From a virus: a stretch of DNA of 23,295 bases. Both the position numbers and the translations under genes were made by a program. Below the pieces are notes generated by a model. The model ran no database searches and was not told where the DNA came from. It worked only from the letters and a program-made list of their open reading frames with translations. Where the stretch lies: positions 1-23,295 of the IMG/VR virus record IMGVR_UViG_3300032020_000050, one strand, 5' to 3'. This document shows positions 3,380 through 20,782 of the stretch, one piece after another (positions within the stretch are counted from its first letter, which is position 1; each line of letters opens with the position of its first letter).

Positions 3380-4249
3380 TCAATCCCCCTTCTTCTGTAT
3401 CTCATCTTCACTAGGCGCGATCACATGCGCGATTCCGTCCTTGTCGATGCCGTAGAATGACGCGCCCAATTCCGCGATTTGCATGGTCGGTAGGAACGGA
3501 TTTTTCTTTTCCGAGGCCCAGACCGAGTCCCCGACCGAGGCCCAGACCGAGGCCCAGACCGAGTCCCAGACCGAGTCCCCGACCGAGGCCCAGACCGAGG
3601 CCCAGACCGAGGCCCTGACCGAGTCCCTGACCGAGGCCCAGACCGAGGGCCAGACCGAGGGCCAGACCGAGGCCCAGACCGAGTCCCCGACCGAGGCCCA
3701 GACCGAGGCCCAGACCGAGTCCCAGACCGAGTCCCTGACCGAGTCCCATTCCTCAATCGAGTGGAATTGCACACCCTTGAAGGGTATCACGCGATGCAGC
3801 GAGTCTGATTGCTCCAGACGCGCGACGTGCTCTGCGATTAGTCGCTCGACCTTCTTTCTATCCGATTCGGAAAGTACCTTCATCTTGACCCGACGCGCTC
3901 GGTCTACCAACTTGAAAAAACTGCGAGCATTCGGCAATCCGATGTCCGTCGCATTCAACTCTCTTTCGACCTTGAGTTTTCTAACCCGTGTCTTTTCATC
4001 GTCCGTTGCGATGGCATCGCTCGCGCGGTAAGAGACTTCCAACAATCGCCACGGCCAAGTCACATACTTGGTCGGGCCGTACTTGTGCTTGCACACGTGT
4101 AGACCTACGCCACATGGTCCGGTGCTAGGCGGATCGGGGTTCTCGACCTCAATGGTCTTCCCGACTGTGTACAGCGTCTTCCCGTCCTTGAACGCGGTTC
4201 CGTCGGGTCGGACCATTTTGTAGGCGCGGATTCGTTTTATCGGCGTCAT
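3380..4249 (-). CDS. DUF7666-like protein with tandem xSVx repeats
   Basis: A 289-residue protein in three parts. Residues 1-80 (YKMVRPDGTAF, LYTVGKTIEV, CGVGLHVCK) resemble the DUF7666-type domain seen in phage and bacterial proteins of unknown role. Residues 85-165 are a charged helical region. Residues about 165-245 are 19 consecutive tetrapeptides of the form xSVx (DSVW, ASVW, ASVG, PSVW, DSVR), encoded by a 12-bp DNA repeat. The last 45 residues return to ordinary sequence. A period-4 Ser-Val pattern suggests a regular solenoid or coil. The repeat count could vary between related viruses. ATG at 4249 has GGAGTGA upstream. The cellular role is unknown. Confidence 0.7.
   Translation of the reverse strand: MTPIKRIRAYKMVRPDGTAFKDGKTLYTVGKTIEVENPDPPSTGPCGVGLHVCKHKYGPTKYVTWPWRLLEVSYRASDAIATDDEKTRVRKLKVERELNATDIGLPNARSFFKLVDRARRVKMKVLSESDRKKVERLIAEHVARLEQSDSLHRVIPFKGVQFHSIEEWDSVRDSVWDSVWASVWASVGDSVWASVWPSVWPSVWASVRDSVRASVWASVWASVGDSVWDSVWASVWASVGDSVWASEKKNPFLPTMQIAELGASFYGIDKDGIAHVIAPSEDEIQKKGD
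3511..3748. repeat. 12-bp tandem repeat array inside coding sequence
   Basis: About 19 copies of a degenerate 12-bp unit, on the plus strand mostly GACCGAGGCCCA with variants GACCGAGTCCCA, GACCGAGTCCCC and GACCGAGGGCCA. Variation is almost confined to positions that switch Asp/Ala/Pro and Trp/Arg/Gly in the minus-strand protein, and longer blocks of variants recur, indicating duplication of multi-unit segments. Because the unit is a multiple of three, copy gain or loss keeps the reading frame. The array opens long frames in several other phases, which are artefacts. Confidence 0.9.
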
Positions 4250-7149: not shown

Positions 7150-9516
7150 CTATGCTGCTGCCTTGCAGTGAATCTCGGCAATGACTCTAGTCGTTCTCCA
7201 CTTCGGAAAGTGCTCACTAGGGTACAGCGCAACAGTAGTATGCCTAGTCCCTCCAGAGGCCGCATCCCAGAGTTCGAGTTGCATGACGTGGTTCGTCCCA
7301 TCTATCGTGTGCCCGTTGATAGTCTCGAACTCGGCATGATACGTGGAGTCATTATAGCGACTATTTGCGGTCCTGGTACACAGAACGCGCACGCCGTCGT
7401 TGATGATGGTACTATTAGCCGTGCACAGTTGCATGTACATCGTTGCGGCAACTTCAACGGCACTGGTGTATCCCGATGCGAAGACGGTCGTGAATGGGTC
7501 GTCAGGTGCGATGAACGATTCACTCCTCTCGGCTCGCCCTCGAGCATCCGTCAAGGCGTTGAGTATTAGTAAGTCCTCATTCGTGATTTGGACCTCGGTC
7601 GTATTCTCGTGAAGGACGATACCCTTGACGTGGAACTCCACATTGTTTATCCCGAGCGGCGAATACTTGAGATGGATATGCCCTCCCGCGCCATAGTATC
7701 CCGAACCGACTTGGAGTTGGAAGAGATCGGGATACACTCCGGCTACCGTTACTGTGCCTTCCCATGTTCCGCGCGTGAACGAATCGAGTATCTGCCACGC
7801 CTTCCGATCTGCATCGGCGAGGGTGTTTATCGACTCGTCCGTGTGCGTTGTCGTGAGTGTCAATTTCGACTTGGTTCTGAAAGATGTTGCTAATGCACGG
7901 TCGTCTCTCTGTACGATGATGGGCGCGCCAGTTGTGGCCTTTCCAACCACTATGACACTGGCAGGTCTCTGGGTCGTCGTGCGCTTCAGGTTGACGGAAA
8001 CTATCCGTATCTCATCATCGGTTGTGGTGTCTGCTCCATGGGAGAACGTGTATCCAAATGTGAACGGTCTCCACCCAGCAGTGATTATGTCTTCGTCATC
8101 GTCATTGCGGTAAGCGGCAATCGCATGTTGGTATCCAGTATACGCTCCCGCGGTCTCAAACGTGTCGCAGAGTTCTCGGAAGCATTCTCCGACCGACTTC
8201 CCGCGAGTCTGATAGAGCGAATACGTAGTGTCGAAGTTGGCATTAACTTCACCGTATACATCGGGATCCGGAGTGAAGCCAATCAATCTGGTAAAGATGT
8301 CTTCTGTGGTCACCGTACCATAGTAGTACGATACCTTGCCCCGATGAATGTGCGCCGCGTAGTAGCCGCCACTAACGGTCGTGATGGGCACGCCGTTCGA
8401 ATTGCATACAATCGTCGTCCCAGAAAGATAATAGTCTTCGAAAACAATTTCTTCATAATATGCAAAGTCGAGACGGAGTGTGAGGTTCGAATCGTCACCA
8501 ACGGATTCCGTCCAATCGGCATCGTCGTGCACCTTCCACCAATAGGAATCGGCAAAAGGATTTGCGCCTATTCCAGTGTGATAGATGACTGCCACGAATC
8601 CTCCGCTATCTTCTGTAACCTTTATTGAAGTATCGCACGAGAAGACCACCCAGTACTTCTTCCCTTTCTCCAATTGAACCGTATCGGATGCCATCTCGTT
8701 CGTGAAGTCTACTTGCACTGGCGTGTTGACGTGGTCGCCGAGTCCGACGAGATATTCGCTCGAAGCGATGTCCACACCACTCGGTCGGTCTCCGCGGTCG
8801 GCTTGGATGGCACAGTGGATATGCCCATCAACTGACACGTCCATAGTTTGATAGTAATATCGAAGCCCAATCAATCCGTCGCCCTTCGCCACGAACGCTT
8901 GCGCAGAATACCAGTACTCGTAGGGGTCTTCCACATCTGGGATGATTGTCGTGCCTAACAGATACTCGAGTGACGCTCCAACTCCGCCGAGATTCGTGGT
9001 GTCATCCGTTCTCGATAGACCGACGAACACCGGCGGCCAGACAACTCCCGTTTCGGTGCAACCGTCGATGGTTGTCGTGCCGACATAATCAGTTGTATCC
9101 TTCTGCTTCAGGTCGCGGTAATTGCCATATACGATCGCGTTCGGCTGGATATATTCGTACTTTTCCAGATAGTCTCTCGCGACGATGGTCAGGATCCCGT
9201 TACTCGCCTGTGAGATCTCTGTGATGAAGCCCCAGAAGACTTCGGTCTTTGTCGTCGGAGCGGCCACTGGGTAAACGAAATAGTTGACGCGGACACCGAT
9301 ATCAATCGCTCCTGTACCCGCGTCCCAACCTGCGAATGAAGTGCTGAGAAGATTCTCTGCGGGGGTCGAGGACTTGTTCTCGACCTGAACGGTCAGTTTT
9401 CTCGGGTAGTTCTCCGTCCATTCAAATGTTCGGGAAATCATCTTCTGGTTTGATGCTTCCGTGATAGTGTAGTATTTCGCCGCATCGTTCCAGAAGGTCA
9501 GCTCAAATTGCGACAT
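7150..9516 (-). CDS. Large tail protein (hub/tip, receptor-binding candidate)
   Basis: A 788-residue protein starting MSQFELTFWNDAAK. The ATG at 9516 forms TAATG with the upstream stop, so the longer frame to 9687 is rejected. Residues about 28-122 (RTFEWTENYPRKLTVQVEN; VFWGFITEIS; GILTIVARDYLEKYE) look like the beta-domain hub of siphovirus or Mu-like tail tip proteins, in which the segment FxG-x-I...LTI...DYL is typical. The middle (150-400) is rich in aromatic beta strands suggesting lectin or jelly-roll modules, and the last 120 residues form another distinct beta domain. As the last gene of the late operon and the largest tail protein, it probably builds the tail tip and contacts the host. 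Confidence 0.65.
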   Translation of the reverse strand: MSQFELTFWNDAAKYYTITEASNQKMISRTFEWTENYPRKLTVQVENKSSTPAENLLSTSFAGWDAGTGAIDIGVRVNYFVYPVAAPTTKTEVFWGFITEISQASNGILTIVARDYLEKYEYIQPNAIVYGNYRDLKQKDTTDYVGTTTIDGCTETGVVWPPVFVGLSRTDDTTNLGGVGASLEYLLGTTIIPDVEDPYEYWYSAQAFVAKGDGLIGLRYYYQTMDVSVDGHIHCAIQADRGDRPSGVDIASSEYLVGLGDHVNTPVQVDFTNEMASDTVQLEKGKKYWVVFSCDTSIKVTEDSGGFVAVIYHTGIGANPFADSYWWKVHDDADWTESVGDDSNLTLRLDFAYYEEIVFEDYYLSGTTIVCNSNGVPITTVSGGYYAAHIHRGKVSYYYGTVTTEDIFTRLIGFTPDPDVYGEVNANFDTTYSLYQTRGKSVGECFRELCDTFETAGAYTGYQHAIAAYRNDDDEDIITAGWRPFTFGYTFSHGADTTTDDEIRIVSVNLKRTTTQRPASVIVVGKATTGAPIIVQRDDRALATSFRTKSKLTLTTTHTDESINTLADADRKAWQILDSFTRGTWEGTVTVAGVYPDLFQLQVGSGYYGAGGHIHLKYSPLGINNVEFHVKGIVLHENTTEVQITNEDLLILNALTDARGRAERSESFIAPDDPFTTVFASGYTSAVEVAATMYMQLCTANSTIINDGVRVLCTRTANSRYNDSTYHAEFETINGHTIDGTNHVMQLELWDAASGGTRHTTVALYPSEHFPKWRTTRVIAEIHCKAAA

Positions 9517-10295
9517 TAACGGTCCTCTATCAGAGTGAGATTGAACGGTATATACGGTCCGTCGCGCGACCCGAACCGCAACGATTCGACGATTGCCTTT
9601 GGCATCGTACAGAATTGCCCGATGTATGACACACGAATCCTGGCGTCCCTCATAACAATTAGCGTCTGCCACGCATAGGTTGACCACGGAATCAATCCTG
9701 ATAGTTCGATTACTCCAGCGTGTCCTCCCTCGGGATATATCCGGCTGTAACTCCTCCCTTCGCAGTAAATCTCGTCTATCTTCTGGTCGCGTCGGATCGG
9801 TGTCGGAGGGTCAAGTATTCCGTTATTCGTCACGTTGCCAGTGTTGAAAAACAAGTAATTCGTGTGGTTGCCGATGCTCGGAGCGAAGTTTTTCAGCTCA
9901 CAGTAATCGAAGTTGAGTGTCCGGGTATCCGCCGTCATACCAGCTATTATCATCCTGATAGGATAGGTCGGTGTCGCATTCACCGAGGTTATGGTGAACG
10001 GGCTCTCTGGGATCGCGGCACTATTGAATCCGCTCGTCACGCTACCCGCTATCAGGATGTGTGCTCCGTTACTATGCGTTCCGGCGGCATCCTTGATTTG
10101 AACCGTGTGCGCGGCATTGGCGGTGAGGATCCCTCCATTTACATAGAGTCCGGCAATCGAGAATGAGTGGTCGATTGCGACGTTGTGTTTAATCTCTACG
10201 TAATCATTTGCCCCGGGTATTCCCGCGGGAGCCCATCGCGCGACATCCCACCATAATCCCGCATCAACCGATGTCTTCGTAGCCGCCCATACCAT
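9516..10295 (-). CDS. G8-like/beta-solenoid tail or fibre protein
   Basis: A 259-residue protein beginning MVWAATKTSVDAGLWWD. The N-terminal 90 residues follow the pattern W...W.P.GxPGANDYVEIKHNVAID...IAGLYVNGGILTAN, typical of G8-like or pectate-lyase-type right-handed solenoids in secreted and virion surface proteins. The C-terminal 80 residues (IDEIYCEGRSY, GGHAGVIELSGLIPWS, FGSRDGPYIPFNLTLIEDR) form a separate beta domain resembling small tail-tip components. Its position between tape-measure-like and hub genes matches a distal tail protein. Function inferred from order and fold pattern. Confidence 0.6.
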   Translation of the reverse strand: MVWAATKTSVDAGLWWDVARWAPAGIPGANDYVEIKHNVAIDHSFSIAGLYVNGGILTANAAHTVQIKDAAGTHSNGAHILIAGSVTSGFNSAAIPESPFTITSVNATPTYPIRMIIAGMTADTRTLNFDYCELKNFAPSIGNHTNYLFFNTGNVTNNGILDPPTPIRRDQKIDEIYCEGRSYSRIYPEGGHAGVIELSGLIPWSTYAWQTLIVMRDARIRVSYIGQFCTMPKAIVESLRFGSRDGPYIPFNLTLIEDR

Positions 10296-10299
10296 GAAC

Positions 10300-10866
10300 C
10301 TAACCCCCTATGATACTAAGAGTACCCTTCGCCATCTCTCGCTGGCCTTGCGAATCGCCACCAGGCGGTGAGAATGTGACGTTGTTAGTCACAGTCGTCT
10401 TGTTCGACCCTCTGCCTGCATAGTAACCGGCCGCCGCCGCACCCGCCCCTAGAGCCAGACCAACGAGAGCCAGTTTCGCCGGACTGTGAAGGACACTTCT
10501 ATACGTCTCAACAGACGCGAGGCTTATCTCCGCCGCTTGCAATGACATGAGTACCATCCTCGCACCTTTGAGTAGTTGGAACGCGCTCGATACCCCGTGA
10601 ATCGCCATACCCAGTGTTTGTAAGGTTTTCGCAGTCTTGCCGCCGACTATTCCGGTTGAAATGAGTACGTTGCTCAGTCCTCTGAAACCCATATCAATAG
10701 ATCGGACTGCTTGAACTTGCATAAGAAAACTAATCTTCTGGCTGTCGCTTATCTGCGTGGTCGCCTGCATCTGGGACGCGAGTTTGCCTTGCCCAGCTTC
10801 GATGCGTGCAACGGACGGACTGATATTGTCTACAAGTGTCAATGTGTATCTGATTTCCTCATCCAC
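10300..10866 (-). CDS. Short tape-measure-like tail protein 2
   Basis: A 188-residue protein beginning MDEEIRYTLTLVDNISPS. Amphipathic helices from 15 to 125 (including GGKTAKTLQTLGMAIHGVSSAF and QLLKGARMVLMSLQAAE) resemble segments of phage tape measures; a hydrophobic Gly/Ala helix at about 131-150 (ALVGLALGAGAAAAGYY) and a polar tail (TTVTNNVTFSPPGGD) follow. GTG at 10866 overlaps the previous stop and has GAGG 5 nt before it. At about 0.15 nm per residue (the usual rule) a tape measure of this size implies a tail of only some 28 nm. Confidence 0.55.
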   Translation of the reverse strand: MDEEIRYTLTLVDNISPSVARIEAGQGKLASQMQATTQISDSQKISFLMQVQAVRSIDMGFRGLSNVLISTGIVGGKTAKTLQTLGMAIHGVSSAFQLLKGARMVLMSLQAAEISLASVETYRSVLHSPAKLALVGLALGAGAAAAGYYAGRGSNKTTVTNNVTFSPPGGDSQGQREMAKGTLSIIGG

Positions 10867-11389
10867 GTTTCCTCACCCCCGTCCCTGCCAATGCGTGCTC
10901 CATCTGCCTTCTCTCTTGAGGTACTCCCAGATTCCCCCCGGGAAGGTTCCAATCGCCAGAACCGAACTTCTCCCCGACAGCATACCCGATACCTAGAGTG
11001 GCCCCGACTAGGATAGCCGCTCCTGCCGCCATCGCGATTGTGTGCCATTGCTGCGCTATCGCCATCGCAGTCGTCTCCCCCGTCGCTAGTGCCAACTCTC
11101 TCGCAGTCTGAGCCTTGACAATAGACCGATACGCGCCCTGAAGCATGAGTATAGAATAGTTCGTGATGACAACCGTTCGAAGGGCTTTCATCAACTGACT
11201 GTTCATGTCGATGTGAACGCCGAGTCCTTCCAAGGCCATTATCGGCTGGTACACGGACCTGATGGAGATGCCTTCCATGCCGAGGTTCATAGAACGCGAA
11301 CTGTAACTTCCCATGCTAGAAGAGGTGGATTCGTAACCGCCGACTATCTCAGCATCTCCCATCTCTAGGAATGCCAAATCACTCGGCAA
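10859..11389 (-). CDS. Short tape-measure-like tail protein 1
   Basis: A 176-residue protein with the same overall plan as its neighbour: a Ser/Met-rich N-terminus (MGDAEIVGGYESTSSS), amphipathic helices (VHIDMNSQLMKALRTVV, AYRSIVKAQTARELAL), a Gly/Ala membrane-like helix at 115-138 (IAMAAGAAILVGATLGIGYAVG) and a Gly-rich tail. TTG at 11389 is used because GGAG is 5 nt before it and overlaps the previous stop; ATG at 11362 is an alternative without a clear site. Sequence similarity to its neighbour is architectural rather than obvious, so duplication is not claimed. Confidence 0.55.
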   Translation of the reverse strand: MPSDLAFLEMGDAEIVGGYESTSSSMGSYSSRSMNLGMEGISIRSVYQPIMALEGLGVHIDMNSQLMKALRTVVITNYSILMLQGAYRSIVKAQTARELALATGETTAMAIAQQWHTIAMAAGAAILVGATLGIGYAVGEKFGSGDWNLPGGNLGVPQERRQMEHALAGTGVRKRG

Positions 11390-12011
11390 TCTTCTCCATC
11401 TCCCTCTTCATCAGTTCGCCCTTCTTTTCGAGGGTGTTCACCAATATGTCCGCTTGCTCGGCGGTCATGTTCTCGATTGTTAAGTCGTTCGAGAGGGGGA
11501 TGCCGTACTCCTTCGCTATCGTGAGTAGTATCTCGCACGACGCAGTCGCAGAACGGACACTTGTAAGCTCTGAAAGAAGGATATACAATTTAGTGACTTC
11601 TTCCGCGTCTAGTGCAGTAAGGAACGCATCGTAATCCTCAAGAGATGCAAACTTAGGGTTCTCGAAACACGCCATCGAAAAGAGTCTCTGTTGATCGCGC
11701 AGTAACTTCCCGCACGATTCCATCCTCTCAATGTGCGCCGCATCCAAAGGAATGCCTCGGCGCTCGAAGTTCCGCAGTTGCTCCGCTTGCTTGAGGACTT
11801 CTATCAGTTCCGGCTTCTCCTCGAAGAACACGGTCAGAATCCTGTCTCGGTCGAGTTGCGTGAGCTTCTTCAAAACAACATCGCCGATGGATGTCCTGAA
11901 CGCCCAGCGTTTCTTGTAGGACTTGATATAATCATCCATGCACACGGGCTTGAAGTCTGCAAACGGTGGTCGGCCCTCATACTCTACGAGGTCCAGAGGT
12001 GGGGTCGGCAC
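11379..12011 (-). CDS. Probable tail assembly chaperone
   Basis: A 210-residue, mostly helical acidic protein, beginning MPTPPLDLVEYEGRPP. It lies between tail tube and tape-measure-like genes, the usual place for tail assembly chaperones, and its composition (LTQLDRDRILTVFFEEKPELIEVL, LTIENMTAEQADILVNTLEK) suits a soluble helical chaperone. The GTG at 12011 has GAGG 9 nt before it. I see no slippery heptamer near its end, so the frameshifted extension found in many phages is not supported here. Assignment is by gene order. Confidence 0.5.
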   Translation of the reverse strand: MPTPPLDLVEYEGRPPFADFKPVCMDDYIKSYKKRWAFRTSIGDVVLKKLTQLDRDRILTVFFEEKPELIEVLKQAEQLRNFERRGIPLDAAHIERMESCGKLLRDQQRLFSMACFENPKFASLEDYDAFLTALDAEEVTKLYILLSELTSVRSATASCEILLTIAKEYGIPLSNDLTIENMTAEQADILVNTLEKKGELMKREMEKIAE

Positions 12012-12013
12012 GT

Positions 12014-12274
12014 CTATCGCCTCAGTATGAAGTCTGCCGCGAGTCCGAGTCCGAGCATGATAAATCCGATGAAGTACGCGAGAGCGGTCCGGTCGTCGTT
12101 GGAATGCTCTTCCTCGTGGTCATCCTTGAACTTGCCCAATATTTCGACCTTGCTCTCCGTGACTGCGACCTTGGTGCATAGGATGTTGAGCTTCGTGAGT
12201 ATCTCGTGATGCTCACTGCGATTCTCCGTCCGAAGCGTCTCTAGCGCGAATGTCAATGCTCGTTCGTCGTCCAT
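12014..12274 (-). CDS. Coiled-coil protein with C-terminal TM helix (XhlA-like)
   Basis: An 86-residue protein starting MDDERALTFALETL. The first 45 residues form a likely coiled coil, followed by an acidic linker (KDDHEEEHSNDD) and one membrane helix (ALAYFIGFIMLGLGLAADFI) ending in RR. This plan matches XhlA/hemolysin-type holin-associated proteins, though the location inside the tail module is unusual for lysis genes. The ATG at 12274 is chosen over GTG 12283 because GAGGTG sits 6 nt before it. It could instead be a tail component that inserts in the membrane. Confidence 0.6.
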   Translation of the reverse strand: MDDERALTFALETLRTENRSEHHEILTKLNILCTKVAVTESKVEILGKFKDDHEEEHSNDDRTALAYFIGFIMLGLGLAADFILRR

Positions 12275-12284
12275 TTCCAACACC

Positions 12285-13217
12285 TCACGCGACCGCTATA
12301 TTCTTGAATCGGATTCGTAACGGTTGTATCATGATGGTTCGCTTGAACTCTGGGAGGTCGTCGTCTTCGAGCATTATCTCCCCGTTCGCTAGTGTGATGG
12401 TATCATCGTCTATCGGGATCGTGAGGGCCGTAATCGCAGAACCCGCCAACTTCGCCGTGTTGTAAGTCTCATTCTCCAAGTCGACCTCGCAGGTGAAGAT
12501 GATGTCTCTCTTGCCTTCCTGTATCGCTCTTGCGCAGTGGTAATAGAGTGTGTCTGCCCCGTAGATGTTCCCCATCGTCACATCCAAGCCATTGTCTATC
12601 TCGATGCTCCAATTCTTAGGATGCCAGTCGACCAAACCGCCCGCCGCTATGTTGATTTGGGAGACCCCGCTCCAGGTCAATATGGCAGTCGTGACATCGG
12701 TGGCATTTGCGCCAACGACCACACCCGCTTGTAGCCCGGCCAATGTCTTCGAAACGCTCTTCTCGACCCATCTTGCTATGACATCCGCCTCGAAGTCGAT
12801 GAGCTGTCCCGGTCCGTCGCAAGACAGTTTCAGTTTGTTTATCTTGCATCCATTGAAGTGCCAGTACACGTCCGCCGCCAAATCGAACCGAAACTGCGCC
12901 GAGAATGATGGCAGGTGCTCGGTGAGCGCGGTGATACTACCCATGCCGAACATAGCCCAGAAGTCACGCCATTGGATCGCCACTGATAAGGCTCTCGACC
13001 ACCCCTTCAGTTTAAATCCGATGTCCCACGCACCTTTAGTGACGTCCGAGAACGACCTCGATGTGGACCCTAGATGAAACGCCTGGTGAGCATTGACCTT
13101 CGGCTTCGCTGATTCGATAGTACATCCCCACACTAGGGCCGTCGCGGGAGTCGTTCCGTAAGTGCCTTCGGTTATGTAGTTGAAGTTCGCTAGTTCCCCG
13201 GGCGAGTAGTTTGCCAT
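12285..13217 (-). CDS. Major tail tube protein
   Basis: A 310-residue protein beginning MANYSPGELANFNYITEGTYGTTPA, the usual opening of siphovirus-type tail tube proteins (an E-x-TYGTTP motif near residue 17). Repeated beta strands such as FKLKGWSRALSVA, INKLKLSCDGPGQLIDFEADVIA and WSIEIDNGLDVTMGNIYG suit the two-sheet tube fold, probably a duplicated domain given the size. It follows the tail terminator gene with TAATG overlap. Its presence shows a real tail rather than a tailless capsid. Confidence 0.75.
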   Translation of the reverse strand: MANYSPGELANFNYITEGTYGTTPATALVWGCTIESAKPKVNAHQAFHLGSTSRSFSDVTKGAWDIGFKLKGWSRALSVAIQWRDFWAMFGMGSITALTEHLPSFSAQFRFDLAADVYWHFNGCKINKLKLSCDGPGQLIDFEADVIARWVEKSVSKTLAGLQAGVVVGANATDVTTAILTWSGVSQINIAAGGLVDWHPKNWSIEIDNGLDVTMGNIYGADTLYYHCARAIQEGKRDIIFTCEVDLENETYNTAKLAGSAITALTIPIDDDTITLANGEIMLEDDDLPEFKRTIMIQPLRIRFKNIAVA

Positions 13218-13630
13218 TATTCCATCTCCTTTATGATATCAAAGTTGACGACGTAGATGTGTCTCCCTTTCGCGTCTCTCCCCAATGAAGAGGGCGATTG
13301 CTTGGCCGCGATCCAATAATAAATCGTGCCGTTGATTGTCGTGCGCGTGAGCTTGTGAAGCGTGTGCATTACATGGTAAGCGTTGTCGTATGCGGTGTCG
13401 TGAGAGACCGCGCGCACGCGAACTTGTATATTAGGAAACTCCCCCTCCCAGTCTACAGATGGTGGGATTCCCCCGTATGCAAACACCGCAATACAGTCAT
13501 CCGGGAGGGTGGGTAGCGTGTTCTCGAATATCGTTCCCGTTGAGGGGGTGATAGTCGTGCCGACGATATGACCGGCTACACCTACCGCCCCTGTCACGAG
13601 CTGAGCGACAATATCCTCAGTAAGAACCAT
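13217..13630 (-). CDS. Tail terminator / minor capsid protein (PF12691-like)
   Basis: A 137-residue protein. A helix near the start (MVLTEDIVAQLVTGAV) is followed by LPDDCIAVFAYGGIPPSVDWE and IQVRVRAVSHDTAYDNAYHVMHTL, the layout of the phage minor capsid/tail terminator family that caps the tail tube and joins it to the head. Position between gp10-like and tube genes agrees. ATG at 13630 lies immediately after the upstream stop. Confidence 0.7.
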   Translation of the reverse strand: MVLTEDIVAQLVTGAVGVAGHIVGTTITPSTGTIFENTLPTLPDDCIAVFAYGGIPPSVDWEGEFPNIQVRVRAVSHDTAYDNAYHVMHTLHKLTRTTINGTIYYWIAAKQSPSSLGRDAKGRHIYVVNFDIIKEME

Positions 13631-13631
13631 T

Positions 13632-13973
13632 TCAAATCCCCAGTATCCTGTTCACTTCGCTATGGACCGCTTCCGGGATGTTCTTTGAATACATCTGAAG
13701 AGGCTCCTCCAAGAACTTCGCTTTCGTGGGCGGGTGATGATATGCCTCTAGGTTTTCGTGTACCCACCAAGCATACTCCGCGCTGTAACCGATGGTTGCG
13801 AGAATCTGCCCATAACCGAGAACCGGCTCTGAGACATATCCCGACCCTCTGAGGTATCCTGTCTTCACCGGGCATATCTTCTTCGACTCGGTGAGGATTT
13901 CCTCAAGTACGCGCTGTAAAGCTATGGAGACTTCGCCCGGGTACTGGTCGGCCAACCCTCTAAGGTGATCCAC
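13632..13973 (-). CDS. HK97 gp10-like head-tail joining protein
   Basis: A 113-residue protein with the family signature: an N-terminal helix, then KKICPVKTGYLRGSGYVSEP (PVxTGxLR is the hallmark), IGYSAEYAWWVHENLEAYHHPPTKAKFLEEPL and a closing helix. Gp10-like proteins act at the head-tail connection. The only start codon in frame after the previous stop is GTG at 13973, giving a shorter N-terminus than usual; the open frame continues a dozen codons upstream (VEIQVPNAQ) without ATG/GTG/TTG, so a rare start codon (ATT) there is possible. Confidence 0.75.
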   Translation of the reverse strand: MDHLRGLADQYPGEVSIALQRVLEEILTESKKICPVKTGYLRGSGYVSEPVLGYGQILATIGYSAEYAWWVHENLEAYHHPPTKAKFLEEPLQMYSKNIPEAVHSEVNRILGI

Positions 13974-14001
13974 GATTGCCTGCGCGTTAGGTACTTGAAT
14001 C

Positions 14002-14751
14002 TCAACCGTGTTCGTTCACCTTGAATGCCCAGAGTCTCTTACGTGTAGAGGGTAGATGTTCGCGGATGTACACTTTCAGTTGTGTCTCCGCCATCGTCTC
14101 GCGTTCATTTGCCAGAATCATCGGGTCGGGACTGGAACCCCCGTCCGTGTTTATTGAACCCGAACGTGTCCCGTCTGCGAACATCCGGCGCATCACCATA
14201 GCGAACGCCTTGTTGAGTCCGATTGCTCTTAGGTTTATGTCGCTCGCACTCGATACGGTGATTCCGTCCATCGCCAATCGAGAGTTGATTTCATTCGTCG
14301 CTTGACCGAGGATCTCGTGTAGAACCGCCTCCGTCAGAGTGCTCCCGGTAAGATTGACAAGTTCGGTTGAGGTTGCGTATGTGTAGGGGTCGGTGATGTA
14401 TTCGGGATTGTTTAGGACGAGTCCTGCCGGAAATGTTCCGGTGTAGTCTCTGAAAATACACCGGGTAGCCACTCCCGTTACGAGTGAAGATGGAAGAGTC
14501 CATCTGTAATCGGGATACGAATTGGCCGACTTGATGGTGCACTTGCTCGTCGAGTTCCCGTTCACGATTATGACGATGTTGCTCGCGGCGGGAAGGAATC
14601 CCGCGCCGAGCGCGTCGTCGAATTCCAAAATCGAACCCGAGTCCATGATGAGCGTTCCTGTTCCCGTCGTGCTCGTCATCTGAAACCATGTCTCAGTGCT
14701 GTCCGCGATTATCGTATGCGTCGTTCCATTGAAGTCCAGTGTTCCAGACAT
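14002..14751 (-). CDS. Neck adaptor-like protein with N-terminal beta domain
   Basis: A 249-residue protein in two parts. Residues 1-105 (MSGTLDFNGTTHTIIAD, GTLIMDSGSILEFDDALG, NIVIIVNGNS) form repeating beta strands of a solenoid or G8-like domain. Residues 120-249 (TELVNLTGSTLTEAVLHEIL, ATNEINSRLAMDGI, NKAFAMVMRRMFADG, QLKVYIREHL) resemble the helical gp6-like head-tail connector that forms the ring below the portal. The next gene is gp10-like, as expected after an adaptor. GAGGTG precedes the ATG. A fusion of surface and adaptor modules is unusual; adaptor identity is inference. Confidence 0.5.
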   Translation of the reverse strand: MSGTLDFNGTTHTIIADSTETWFQMTSTTGTGTLIMDSGSILEFDDALGAGFLPAASNIVIIVNGNSTSKCTIKSANSYPDYRWTLPSSLVTGVATRCIFRDYTGTFPAGLVLNNPEYITDPYTYATSTELVNLTGSTLTEAVLHEILGQATNEINSRLAMDGITVSSASDINLRAIGLNKAFAMVMRRMFADGTRSGSINTDGGSSPDPMILANERETMAETQLKVYIREHLPSTRKRLWAFKVNEHG

Positions 14752-14754
14752 TTT

Positions 14755-16584
14755 CTACACCTCACACCATCTATGCATGACCGGAATGAAACAGTCAATA
14801 TCCAACCAGTTGAGAACCGCGCTTCCGAGATTGTCAATCATTATCATCTTGCGGAGGCCCGTTGTCGCGACTGGCATATCGGCGGCCCCGATTTGCAGGA
14901 CGAGTTTGTCTTGATTATAGACATCCATCCCGGTGGCTGTCTGTCGCAGCTCCCACTTCATCGCCAGATTGCCGGGGGCAACTACCCCAGTATCGAGGTT
15001 CTTCACCACACCAGATCTGGCAACCTTCACGACATAGTTTGCGCTAACTCTGGTATCGAGACAGATGAGAACGCAGTCCGTGTTCAATGGTCCGAGCGCT
15101 CCTCGGTCATCGGAGAATCCGACAGCGTAGAATACATCCGCATTGCTGTATTCCCTGAAAACCGCGTATAGGCCCAACCCCCCTTCTCGAAGATTGTAAT
15201 TCTTGTCTTGACCTTCCATCCATGTCGGATTCCCGATTCCTACTTCTGTTTGAACCCGCCAGAACCCGCCCGAATCTCCTATGGTATTGATGCCGTGATT
15301 CGTTCCCATGTTGCAGTACCACTTCGCGCCGCAGGCTTTCGCAGTGGCCGACCAGTCTATTTCGTGACCATCTGATGCATCCAAGATGCAGATTCCTTTC
15401 GCGAACAGATTTCCTTGAAGGTCGATGTCTCTCATGTCCGGGACGATGGAATTAATCGCGGGGACTGCGATGAATATTTCCTCGAACGCCGCGCCCGAGG
15501 CATTGAAGAACATGAGAACCTTTCCCTCGGTATTGACTAGGTGAGGTCTCCAGAAAGTCTTTACGAACATTCTCCAAGTCTCTGAGGTCATAACGGGATT
15601 GTCGACGGATTTCGTCCATGTTACCAAATCGGTGGAATACGCCATCCCAAGACCTTCGGGCGGCGGTTCGCTATTCGGACTCGGGGGAGGGGAACTACAC
15701 GCACAATACGCCATGACATAATAAGCCCCGACTCGAATGATACTCGGGACACCGACCCATCCGGCATCCCATGTGTCTGCGGTGACATCGAGGAGTTTGC
15801 CTTGTTTCGTCCATGCGATTCCGTTCGTCGAGGTCGCGTAGTAGATGCGCCATCTGTAATCAGGCGCGCCATTCGGCTGGCCTGCATAGAGCATATAGTA
15901 CACCCCGTCCTTCTCCAACACCGACGGAGCCAGTATGTTCACCGTGGTCTCCGCTCCGGGTTCTAAACCGGGAGATAGGACCGGATTGAGAAGACTCCTC
16001 GTCCATGTGACGAGGTCGGTCGATGTAGCTAGACCTATTTGTTTCAGTTCGGCGACATTCATCCCTTCATAATACATATAGTAAGTCGAACCGATTTGCA
16101 GGATGGAGGCTTTGCTCGCGAACTTGTCGTCCCATTGGCCGCCTGCTCCCTCTTGAAAGACCGGGTTCGAAACACCCTTCGTCCATTGATAGAGATTCTG
16201 AGATGTTGCGAAGCCGATTCTCGCGTGGGTTCCATCATATCCGCCGTAGAACAGGTAGTAGGTGTCTCCCTTGCGAATCAACCATGGGTCGTTTATGGTG
16301 ACCGAATCCCACGCGCCTGAGATGCCCACCTTCAAAAGTTGTTCCTTGCGGATGTGCCACGGTCCTATGGGCAAGTCGTTATACCAGCGTTGATTCTGGT
16401 CCGGTTCGGAAAGCGTCATCCCTTTTGAATGCACAGACATCGCGCCGAACTTCCCGTCCTTATCGAGATATTCGAGGAGAGTGTCGTCGCTCTTTTTGAT
16501 TTCGCGGATATTCACCACTTGACCGGGTGAGGCTATGACTTCATGTGTGACTAGGTTTGGGTCTGCGGAAGTTTCTTTTCCCAT
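14755..16584 (-). CDS. GH43-like five-bladed beta-propeller virion protein
   Basis: A 609-residue protein. Residues about 90-375 contain five blades, each with the pattern P-x-(I/V)-x-(R/K)-x-G-x-YY-(L/M)-x-Y followed by IGxATSxDLxxWT (blade starts near 98, 158, 218, 279 and 345), as in glycosyl hydrolase family 43/32-type propellers. NDPW in blade 1 holds the usual Asp; the complete acid set cannot be confirmed. A Pro-rich insert (SSPPPSPNSEPPP) interrupts blade 4. Residues 380-609 form a lectin-like beta domain. It probably binds or cuts a surface glycan. ATG 16584 has GAGGAG upstream; a 10-codon frame with GGAGGG lies just before it. Confidence 0.65.
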   Translation of the reverse strand: MGKETSADPNLVTHEVIASPGQVVNIREIKKSDDTLLEYLDKDGKFGAMSVHSKGMTLSEPDQNQRWYNDLPIGPWHIRKEQLLKVGISGAWDSVTINDPWLIRKGDTYYLFYGGYDGTHARIGFATSQNLYQWTKGVSNPVFQEGAGGQWDDKFASKASILQIGSTYYMYYEGMNVAELKQIGLATSTDLVTWTRSLLNPVLSPGLEPGAETTVNILAPSVLEKDGVYYMLYAGQPNGAPDYRWRIYYATSTNGIAWTKQGKLLDVTADTWDAGWVGVPSIIRVGAYYVMAYCACSSPPPSPNSEPPPEGLGMAYSTDLVTWTKSVDNPVMTSETWRMFVKTFWRPHLVNTEGKVLMFFNASGAAFEEIFIAVPAINSIVPDMRDIDLQGNLFAKGICILDASDGHEIDWSATAKACGAKWYCNMGTNHGINTIGDSGGFWRVQTEVGIGNPTWMEGQDKNYNLREGGLGLYAVFREYSNADVFYAVGFSDDRGALGPLNTDCVLICLDTRVSANYVVKVARSGVVKNLDTGVVAPGNLAMKWELRQTATGMDVYNQDKLVLQIGAADMPVATTGLRKMIMIDNLGSAVLNWLDIDCFIPVMHRWCEV

Positions 16585-20311: not shown

Positions 20312-20782
20312 TTAGGCGTGGATCACGCTCGTAGTTCCGCAGAGCACAAGCATCTTCTCCATCGTCAGAGATGCCGCAGTCGAATCCTCAAGCATCCTGC
20401 CGACGAGTTCCTGTGTCGCCGCTCCGGAACATGCTATCACTGTGCCGCCGACGGCGCAGTCGTTCGTAGTCACGGGCTCGCCCGCATCTATGTCTACGTC
20501 GCTCGAATAGTTCGAGACGTAGACGATGCAACCGAGCATCGCGACCGCCACCTGTTTCCCAGCAGTAGCTTCCGCCGCCGTCACTCCTTGGATTGCGACT
20601 CCGAGAGGGGCTTCTCCCGCCTCGACGACTGCCGCTCGGACAGTCATGGTCACGCCAGTTGCATCTATCGCAACAACCTGACCCGCGGAGATGGCTCCAC
20701 TGGCGATGAAGCTCTGCACATTATTCCCAGCCACTAGAATCGTTTTCATGGTCGCCGGGAATGCTGTTCTGTCGTTTGCCAT
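20312..20782 (-). CDS. Capsid decoration/cement protein (DUF2190-like)
   Basis: A 156-residue protein. AGNNVQSFIASGAISAGQVVAIDATG, then GEAPLGVAIQGVTAAEATAGKQVAVAMLGCIVYV and the closing segment follow the DUF2190 cement protein plan (small beta-barrel that stabilises the capsid). Ala, Val, Thr and Gly dominate. Position between protease-scaffold and capsid genes matches. GGAGGA lies 6-7 nt before the ATG. Assignment from pattern and order; no search was run. Confidence 0.65.
   Translation of the reverse strand: MANDRTAFPATMKTILVAGNNVQSFIASGAISAGQVVAIDATGVTMTVRAAVVEAGEAPLGVAIQGVTAAEATAGKQVAVAMLGCIVYVSNYSSDVDIDAGEPVTTNDCAVGGTVIACSGAATQELVGRMLEDSTAASLTMEKMLVLCGTTSVIHA

Follow-up and report, generated by a model that had tools for sequence, protein, structure and literature searches.

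Which protein sets the tail length of a tailed virus when the place of its tape measure gene holds no long gene? Tape measure genes are nearly always located between the tube and baseplate genes. The question is raised by a linear virus record of IMG/VR, analysed over its whole 23,295 bases (the window), which is a fragment without portal and terminase; the remaining genome is unseen. The minus strand of the window carries the structural genes from MuF through a 788-residue hub-like protein, in the order MuF, protease/scaffold, decoration-like protein, major capsid protein, neck proteins, tail terminator, tail tube, an 89-residue protein, a 210-residue protein, two small proteins that we call TMP1 and TMP2, a 259-residue protein and the 788-residue protein. 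The nearest matches of the major capsid protein come from tailed viruses of Halorubrum and Haloferax (26–28% identity). The window likely belongs to a tailed virus with an archaeal host, and the proximity of its major capsid protein to those of the Haloferuviridae indicates that the virus is probably archaeal. For comparison, we used contigs L002 and L004 from other metagenomes, contig L003 and the more distant contig L030.

The region around the small genes is composed of recognisable and unrecognisable tail genes, all on the minus strand. The tail tube protein (310 residues, 12285-13217) matches PF18906 Phage_tube_2 with an E value of 5.5e-12. It is preceded by the tail terminator (13217-13630, PF12691) and a tail completion/neck protein (13632-13973, phrog_5). 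At the other end, the 788-residue gene (7150-9516), whose start at 9516 matches that in L002, is unrecognised by any family library or PDB search, and its hub-like function is assigned from position and size. Thus, the tail tube described as clear in the preliminary description is confirmed, and the tail hub named there is a putative one. The 259-residue protein (9516-10295), encoded directly downstream of TMP2, may be a distal tail or baseplate connector-like protein by its position. Its AlphaFold model has a pLDDT of 30, and no similarity to the baseplate connector of the halovirus HFTV1 was found. The 210-residue protein (11379-12011) is acidic and helical, and resembles a tail assembly chaperone in position and composition. 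It has no −1 frameshift extension and matched nothing in family libraries or PDB profile searches. Between it and the tube gene, the 89-residue protein (12014-12283) has a C-terminal membrane-like helix; its gene is present in L002, L003 and L004 and absent in L030, where the tube and chaperone-like genes overlap, and it looks like a later insertion.

At the place of the 609-residue neck-region gene (14755-16584), L002, L003 and L004 have other ORFs, of 470, 562 and 590 residues, and the capsid-to-neck region is a site of swappable genes, possibly receptor- or sugar-binding. L003 contains three consecutive decoration-like genes (951-2399) compared with one in the window (20312-20782). Downstream of its tail genes, L002 has a tyrosine integrase-like ORF (13821-14660), suggesting temperate relatives. 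In addition, positions 3420-3750 of the window hold a tetrapeptide repeat array (D/A/P-S-V-W) within the ORF 3380-4249, a stretch with several open frames.

No ORF of at least 300 codons lies between the tail tube gene and the hub-like gene of the window, in agreement with the preliminary description, which reported a missing long tape measure. The space between the tube and baseplate-like genes is filled by TMP1, TMP2, the chaperone-like gene and the 89-residue gene. The other long ORFs of this linear fragment encode the major capsid protein, the protease/scaffold, MuF and beta-rich variable proteins; none is tape-measure-like, so a long tape measure elsewhere, which would have spoken against the earlier claim, is not found in the window. 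A long tape measure is likewise absent from every contig that covers this slot. The real tape measure might instead be encoded by the missing portion of the genome, with neither TMP1 nor TMP2 acting as one. The missing portal and terminase of the contig and the lack of any tape measure family match for the two proteins are consistent with such an arrangement, but in all contigs covering the slot the pair recurs and long helical ORFs are absent, and the window reaches 7 kb past the hub; we regard this explanation as doubtful. In the haloarchaeal myovirus phiCh1 (examined over 10000-26000), the space between what are presumably the tube and baseplate genes contains just small ORFs and one ORF of 452 residues, none annotated as a tape measure.

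TMP1 (176 residues, 10859-11389, minus strand) starts with TTG and TMP2 (188 residues, 10300-10866, minus strand) with GTG. TMP1 has a Ser/Gly-rich N-terminus followed by helices, a hydrophobic segment at about residues 116-139 and a polar tail. TMP2 contains a helical region, a Gly/Ala hydrophobic segment at about residues 130-150 and a polar C-terminal tail (156-188). Both genes are complete and in the same order in L002 and L030, encoding 173-176 residues for TMP1 and 186-188 for TMP2, while L004 contains the complete TMP1 and ends after residue 41 of TMP2. The window, L002 and L030 share one gene order, running from the tube through the chaperone-like gene, TMP1 and TMP2 to the baseplate-like genes; L004 has it from the tube gene up to the TMP2 start, where that contig stops. 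Between L030 and the window, identity is 49% for TMP1, 56% for TMP2, 53% for the tube, 41% for the chaperone-like protein and 63% for the downstream protein; the lengths of TMP1 and TMP2 are therefore constant at about 50% identity. Most codon differences of L002 and L004 from the window are silent. Compared with L002, 40 silent and 3 changing codon differences are found in TMP2 codons 1-160, and 21 silent and 10 changing ones in TMP1. On this sequence evidence, TMP1 and TMP2 are real, separate genes and not ORFs open by chance. IMG/VR scans for distant relatives yielded close relatives, haloviruses and L030 only, and GTDB scans with two major capsid protein alignments found no distant relatives.

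The two genes overlap in the window, as first described, by 8 nt; the overlap is real, but it is not essential, since the two genes of L030 are separated by a gap and each has its own start. An assembly error or a single frameshifted gene is ruled out by the same arrangement in L002, L004 and L030. TMP1 also overlaps the end of the chaperone-like gene by 11 nt in the window, as expected if it were a frameshift extension of the chaperone in the style of lambda G/GT. However, the frame of TMP1 relative to the chaperone is +1, not −1, and in L030 the chaperone-like gene stops ahead of TMP1, which starts at its own GTG with an in-frame stop five codons upstream. These separate starts and the upstream stop exclude a sequencing frameshift and contradict a lambda-type product, whose residual probability is close to nil. 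A fused TMP1–TMP2 product is not expected from the sequences.

Three properties (the hydropathy maximum over 19 residues, the fraction of acidic residues and that of Gly+Ala) were compared with those of 10 annotated tape measures and 12 chaperone-slot proteins, taken from Mu, A118, TP901-1, HK97, psiM2, vir515, Tubberson, HFTV1, HRTV-4 and HRTV-29. The tape measures range over 1.29-2.85, 0.07-0.18 and 0.13-0.33, respectively, and the chaperone-slot proteins over 0.46-1.47, 0.01-0.27 and 0.08-0.21. With values of 1.56-1.84, 0.06-0.09 and 0.23-0.27, TMP1 and TMP2 group with the tape measures on all three properties, in the window and L030 alike, and the 210-residue protein groups with the chaperones. 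In both contigs the pair is Gly/Ala-rich and low in acidic residues and possesses a membrane-like hydrophobic helix, unlike chaperones. Moreover, the pair follows the tail tube and the putative chaperone and precedes the putative baseplate genes, which is the tape measure slot.

This comparison bears on the role of TMP1. In TP901-1 (p43/p44) and A118 (p14/p15), the tail tube and tape measure genes are separated by two small genes, and TMP1 occupies the position of the second of them, so TMP2 alone could be the tape measure and TMP1 a second assembly chaperone. However, those chaperone pairs are mostly acidic, have no membrane-like helix and are followed by a long tape measure, whereas the composition of TMP1 (hydropathy 1.84 and Gly+Ala 0.25, at an acidic fraction of 0.08) fits the range of the tape measures and not that of the chaperones. 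We consider a chaperone role for TMP1 unlikely, although it carries more weight than the other alternatives discussed here.

The likeness to tape measures is not matched by recognisable sequence similarity. No tape measure match for TMP1 or TMP2 was obtained in Pfam, PHROGs, NCBIfam or PDB profile searches, including the profiles PF10145, PF24164, PF06791 and the PHROG tape measure families; in this respect the tape measure assignment of the preliminary description is not borne out. PF24164 (TMP_N) detects all five halovirus records tested and misses TMP1 and TMP2, and phrog_305 also finds the halovirus tape measures, whereas PF10145 misses both groups, so that the silence of the profiles is only partly informative. 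TMP2 of L002 has a weak PHROG match to phrog_20280, a 'minor tail protein' (E 0.053). Among 396 ORFs, the best non-orthologous scores of TMP2 include halovirus tape measures, at a level that is not significant. An N-terminal tape measure motif appeared convincing by eye in TMP2 and was not favoured in a scored strand–helix block model of known tape measures, a test of low power in which TMP2 ranks about 260 of 962 and left-out known ones rank 19-117. The AlphaFold model of TMP2 is mostly helical to residue 150, but it is a low-confidence model, with a pLDDT of 43. We infer that TMP2 is tape measure-like from its position, composition and evolution rather than from membership of a sequence family.

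A further indication comes from the C-terminus of TMP2. Between the window and L002, 153 of 155 positions are identical in residues 1-155 and 23 of 33 in residues 156-188. The divergence thus begins within the TMP2 C-terminus, and the two baseplate-like genes that follow are 58% identical. In L004, TMP1 retains 97% identity while the tube gene falls to 68%. Residues 317-341 of the HFTV1 tape measure touch the baseplate through hub and connector docking (PMC12494034), and variation of the TMP2 C-terminus together with the baseplate genes is expected if the end of TMP2 makes a similar contact. By this pattern, TMP2, with a C-terminal tail that changes together with the baseplate genes, is the best candidate for the ruler.

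HFTV1 gp40 (Haloferuviridae; PDB 9h4p/9h7v), from the characterised virus group whose major capsid protein is most similar, is among the nearest counterparts, being a short helical tape measure in the same slot with a hydrophobic segment and a baseplate-docked C-terminus. It differs in being a single gene of 341 residues for 11 rings, and its sequence shows no detectable similarity to either TMP1 or TMP2. Residues 2-316 of the HFTV1 protein span the 11 rings at 28.6 residues per ring (PMC12494034). With this scaling, the helical part of TMP2 (3-150) would span about 5 rings (22 nm), and full-length TMP2 would span 6-7 rings (28 nm). TMP2 alone is therefore predicted to specify about 5-7 tube rings, close to the gene transfer agent of Rhodobacter capsulatus (RcGTA), whose tail has five rings and, with the baseplate counted in, measures 49 nm (PMC7296036). 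Its tape measure g11, also very short, with a helix at the N-terminus and strands and loops in the C-terminal part (PMC7296036), is in contrast a bacterial, single-gene trimer, and no second tape-measure-like gene is described there.

Acting end to end as one ruler in two pieces, TMP1 and TMP2 would total 364 residues, near the 341 of HFTV1, and give 12-13 rings and about 55 nm, an HFTV1-like tail. Compared with halovirus tape measures only, however, neither protein aligns to either half of the ruler, a hydrophobic segment and a polar C-terminus are present in both, and the genes are cleanly separate in L030 with their own starts. The split tape measure suggested earlier is not supported by these observations, and an end-to-end ruler is quite improbable.

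The near-equal length and layout of the two proteins could also reflect tandem duplication, the paralogues forming a mixed bundle in which each is specialised for one C-terminal conformation. This idea is attractive because the HFTV1 tape measure is a hexamer with two alternating C-terminal forms (PMC12494034). In the window, TMP1 and TMP2 align with a local score of 62 against 37 ± 6.5 for shuffled sequences (fraction 0.003, Z about 3.9), and they are reciprocal best non-self matches among 396 ORFs. However, the L030 pair is no more similar than shuffles (Z −0.5), with an hhalign probability below 1%. Because the weak similarity vanishes in L030, tandem paralogy receives low weight and appears rather unlikely. 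The layout shared by the two proteins, as noted in the preliminary description, is tape-measure-like in arrangement and composition and does not by itself indicate common descent of the pair. A mixed side-by-side bundle of two mini tape measures that sets the tail length, each specialised for one of the HFTV1 roles (hub docking or folding back on the connector), is likewise a tentative proposal to which we assign a low probability. For the presence of two proteins, side-by-side use of both is the likeliest explanation, followed by TMP1 as an unusual chaperone and then by an end-to-end ruler.

The reading that we favour, at a probability of roughly 0.6, is a probably archaeal virus whose tail is very short and non-contractile, with TMP2 as the tape measure and TMP1 as a second protein of the same type. 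Copies of TMP2 would form a bundle filling the roughly 5-7 rings of the tube; the C-terminal tail would dock on the baseplate, and the Gly/Ala helix could insert into the host membrane during ejection. TMP1, translated separately, may share the channel or co-assemble with TMP2. The channel location of both proteins, their action as rulers, the length of the tail and the function of TMP1 are inferences.

Short tape measures are already known; a paired ruler or split tape measure was not found in the literature searched, and a conserved pair of mini ruler-like genes appears to be new. The usual assumption is that a tape measure is one long protein and that its length determines that of the tail. 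If the conserved tape-measure-like proteins of fewer than 200 residues described here are rulers, they would approach the minimum size of a ruler. With such a pair, it could be tested directly if the rings are counted by one protein or by two, and if the membrane-entry role is separable from the ruler role.
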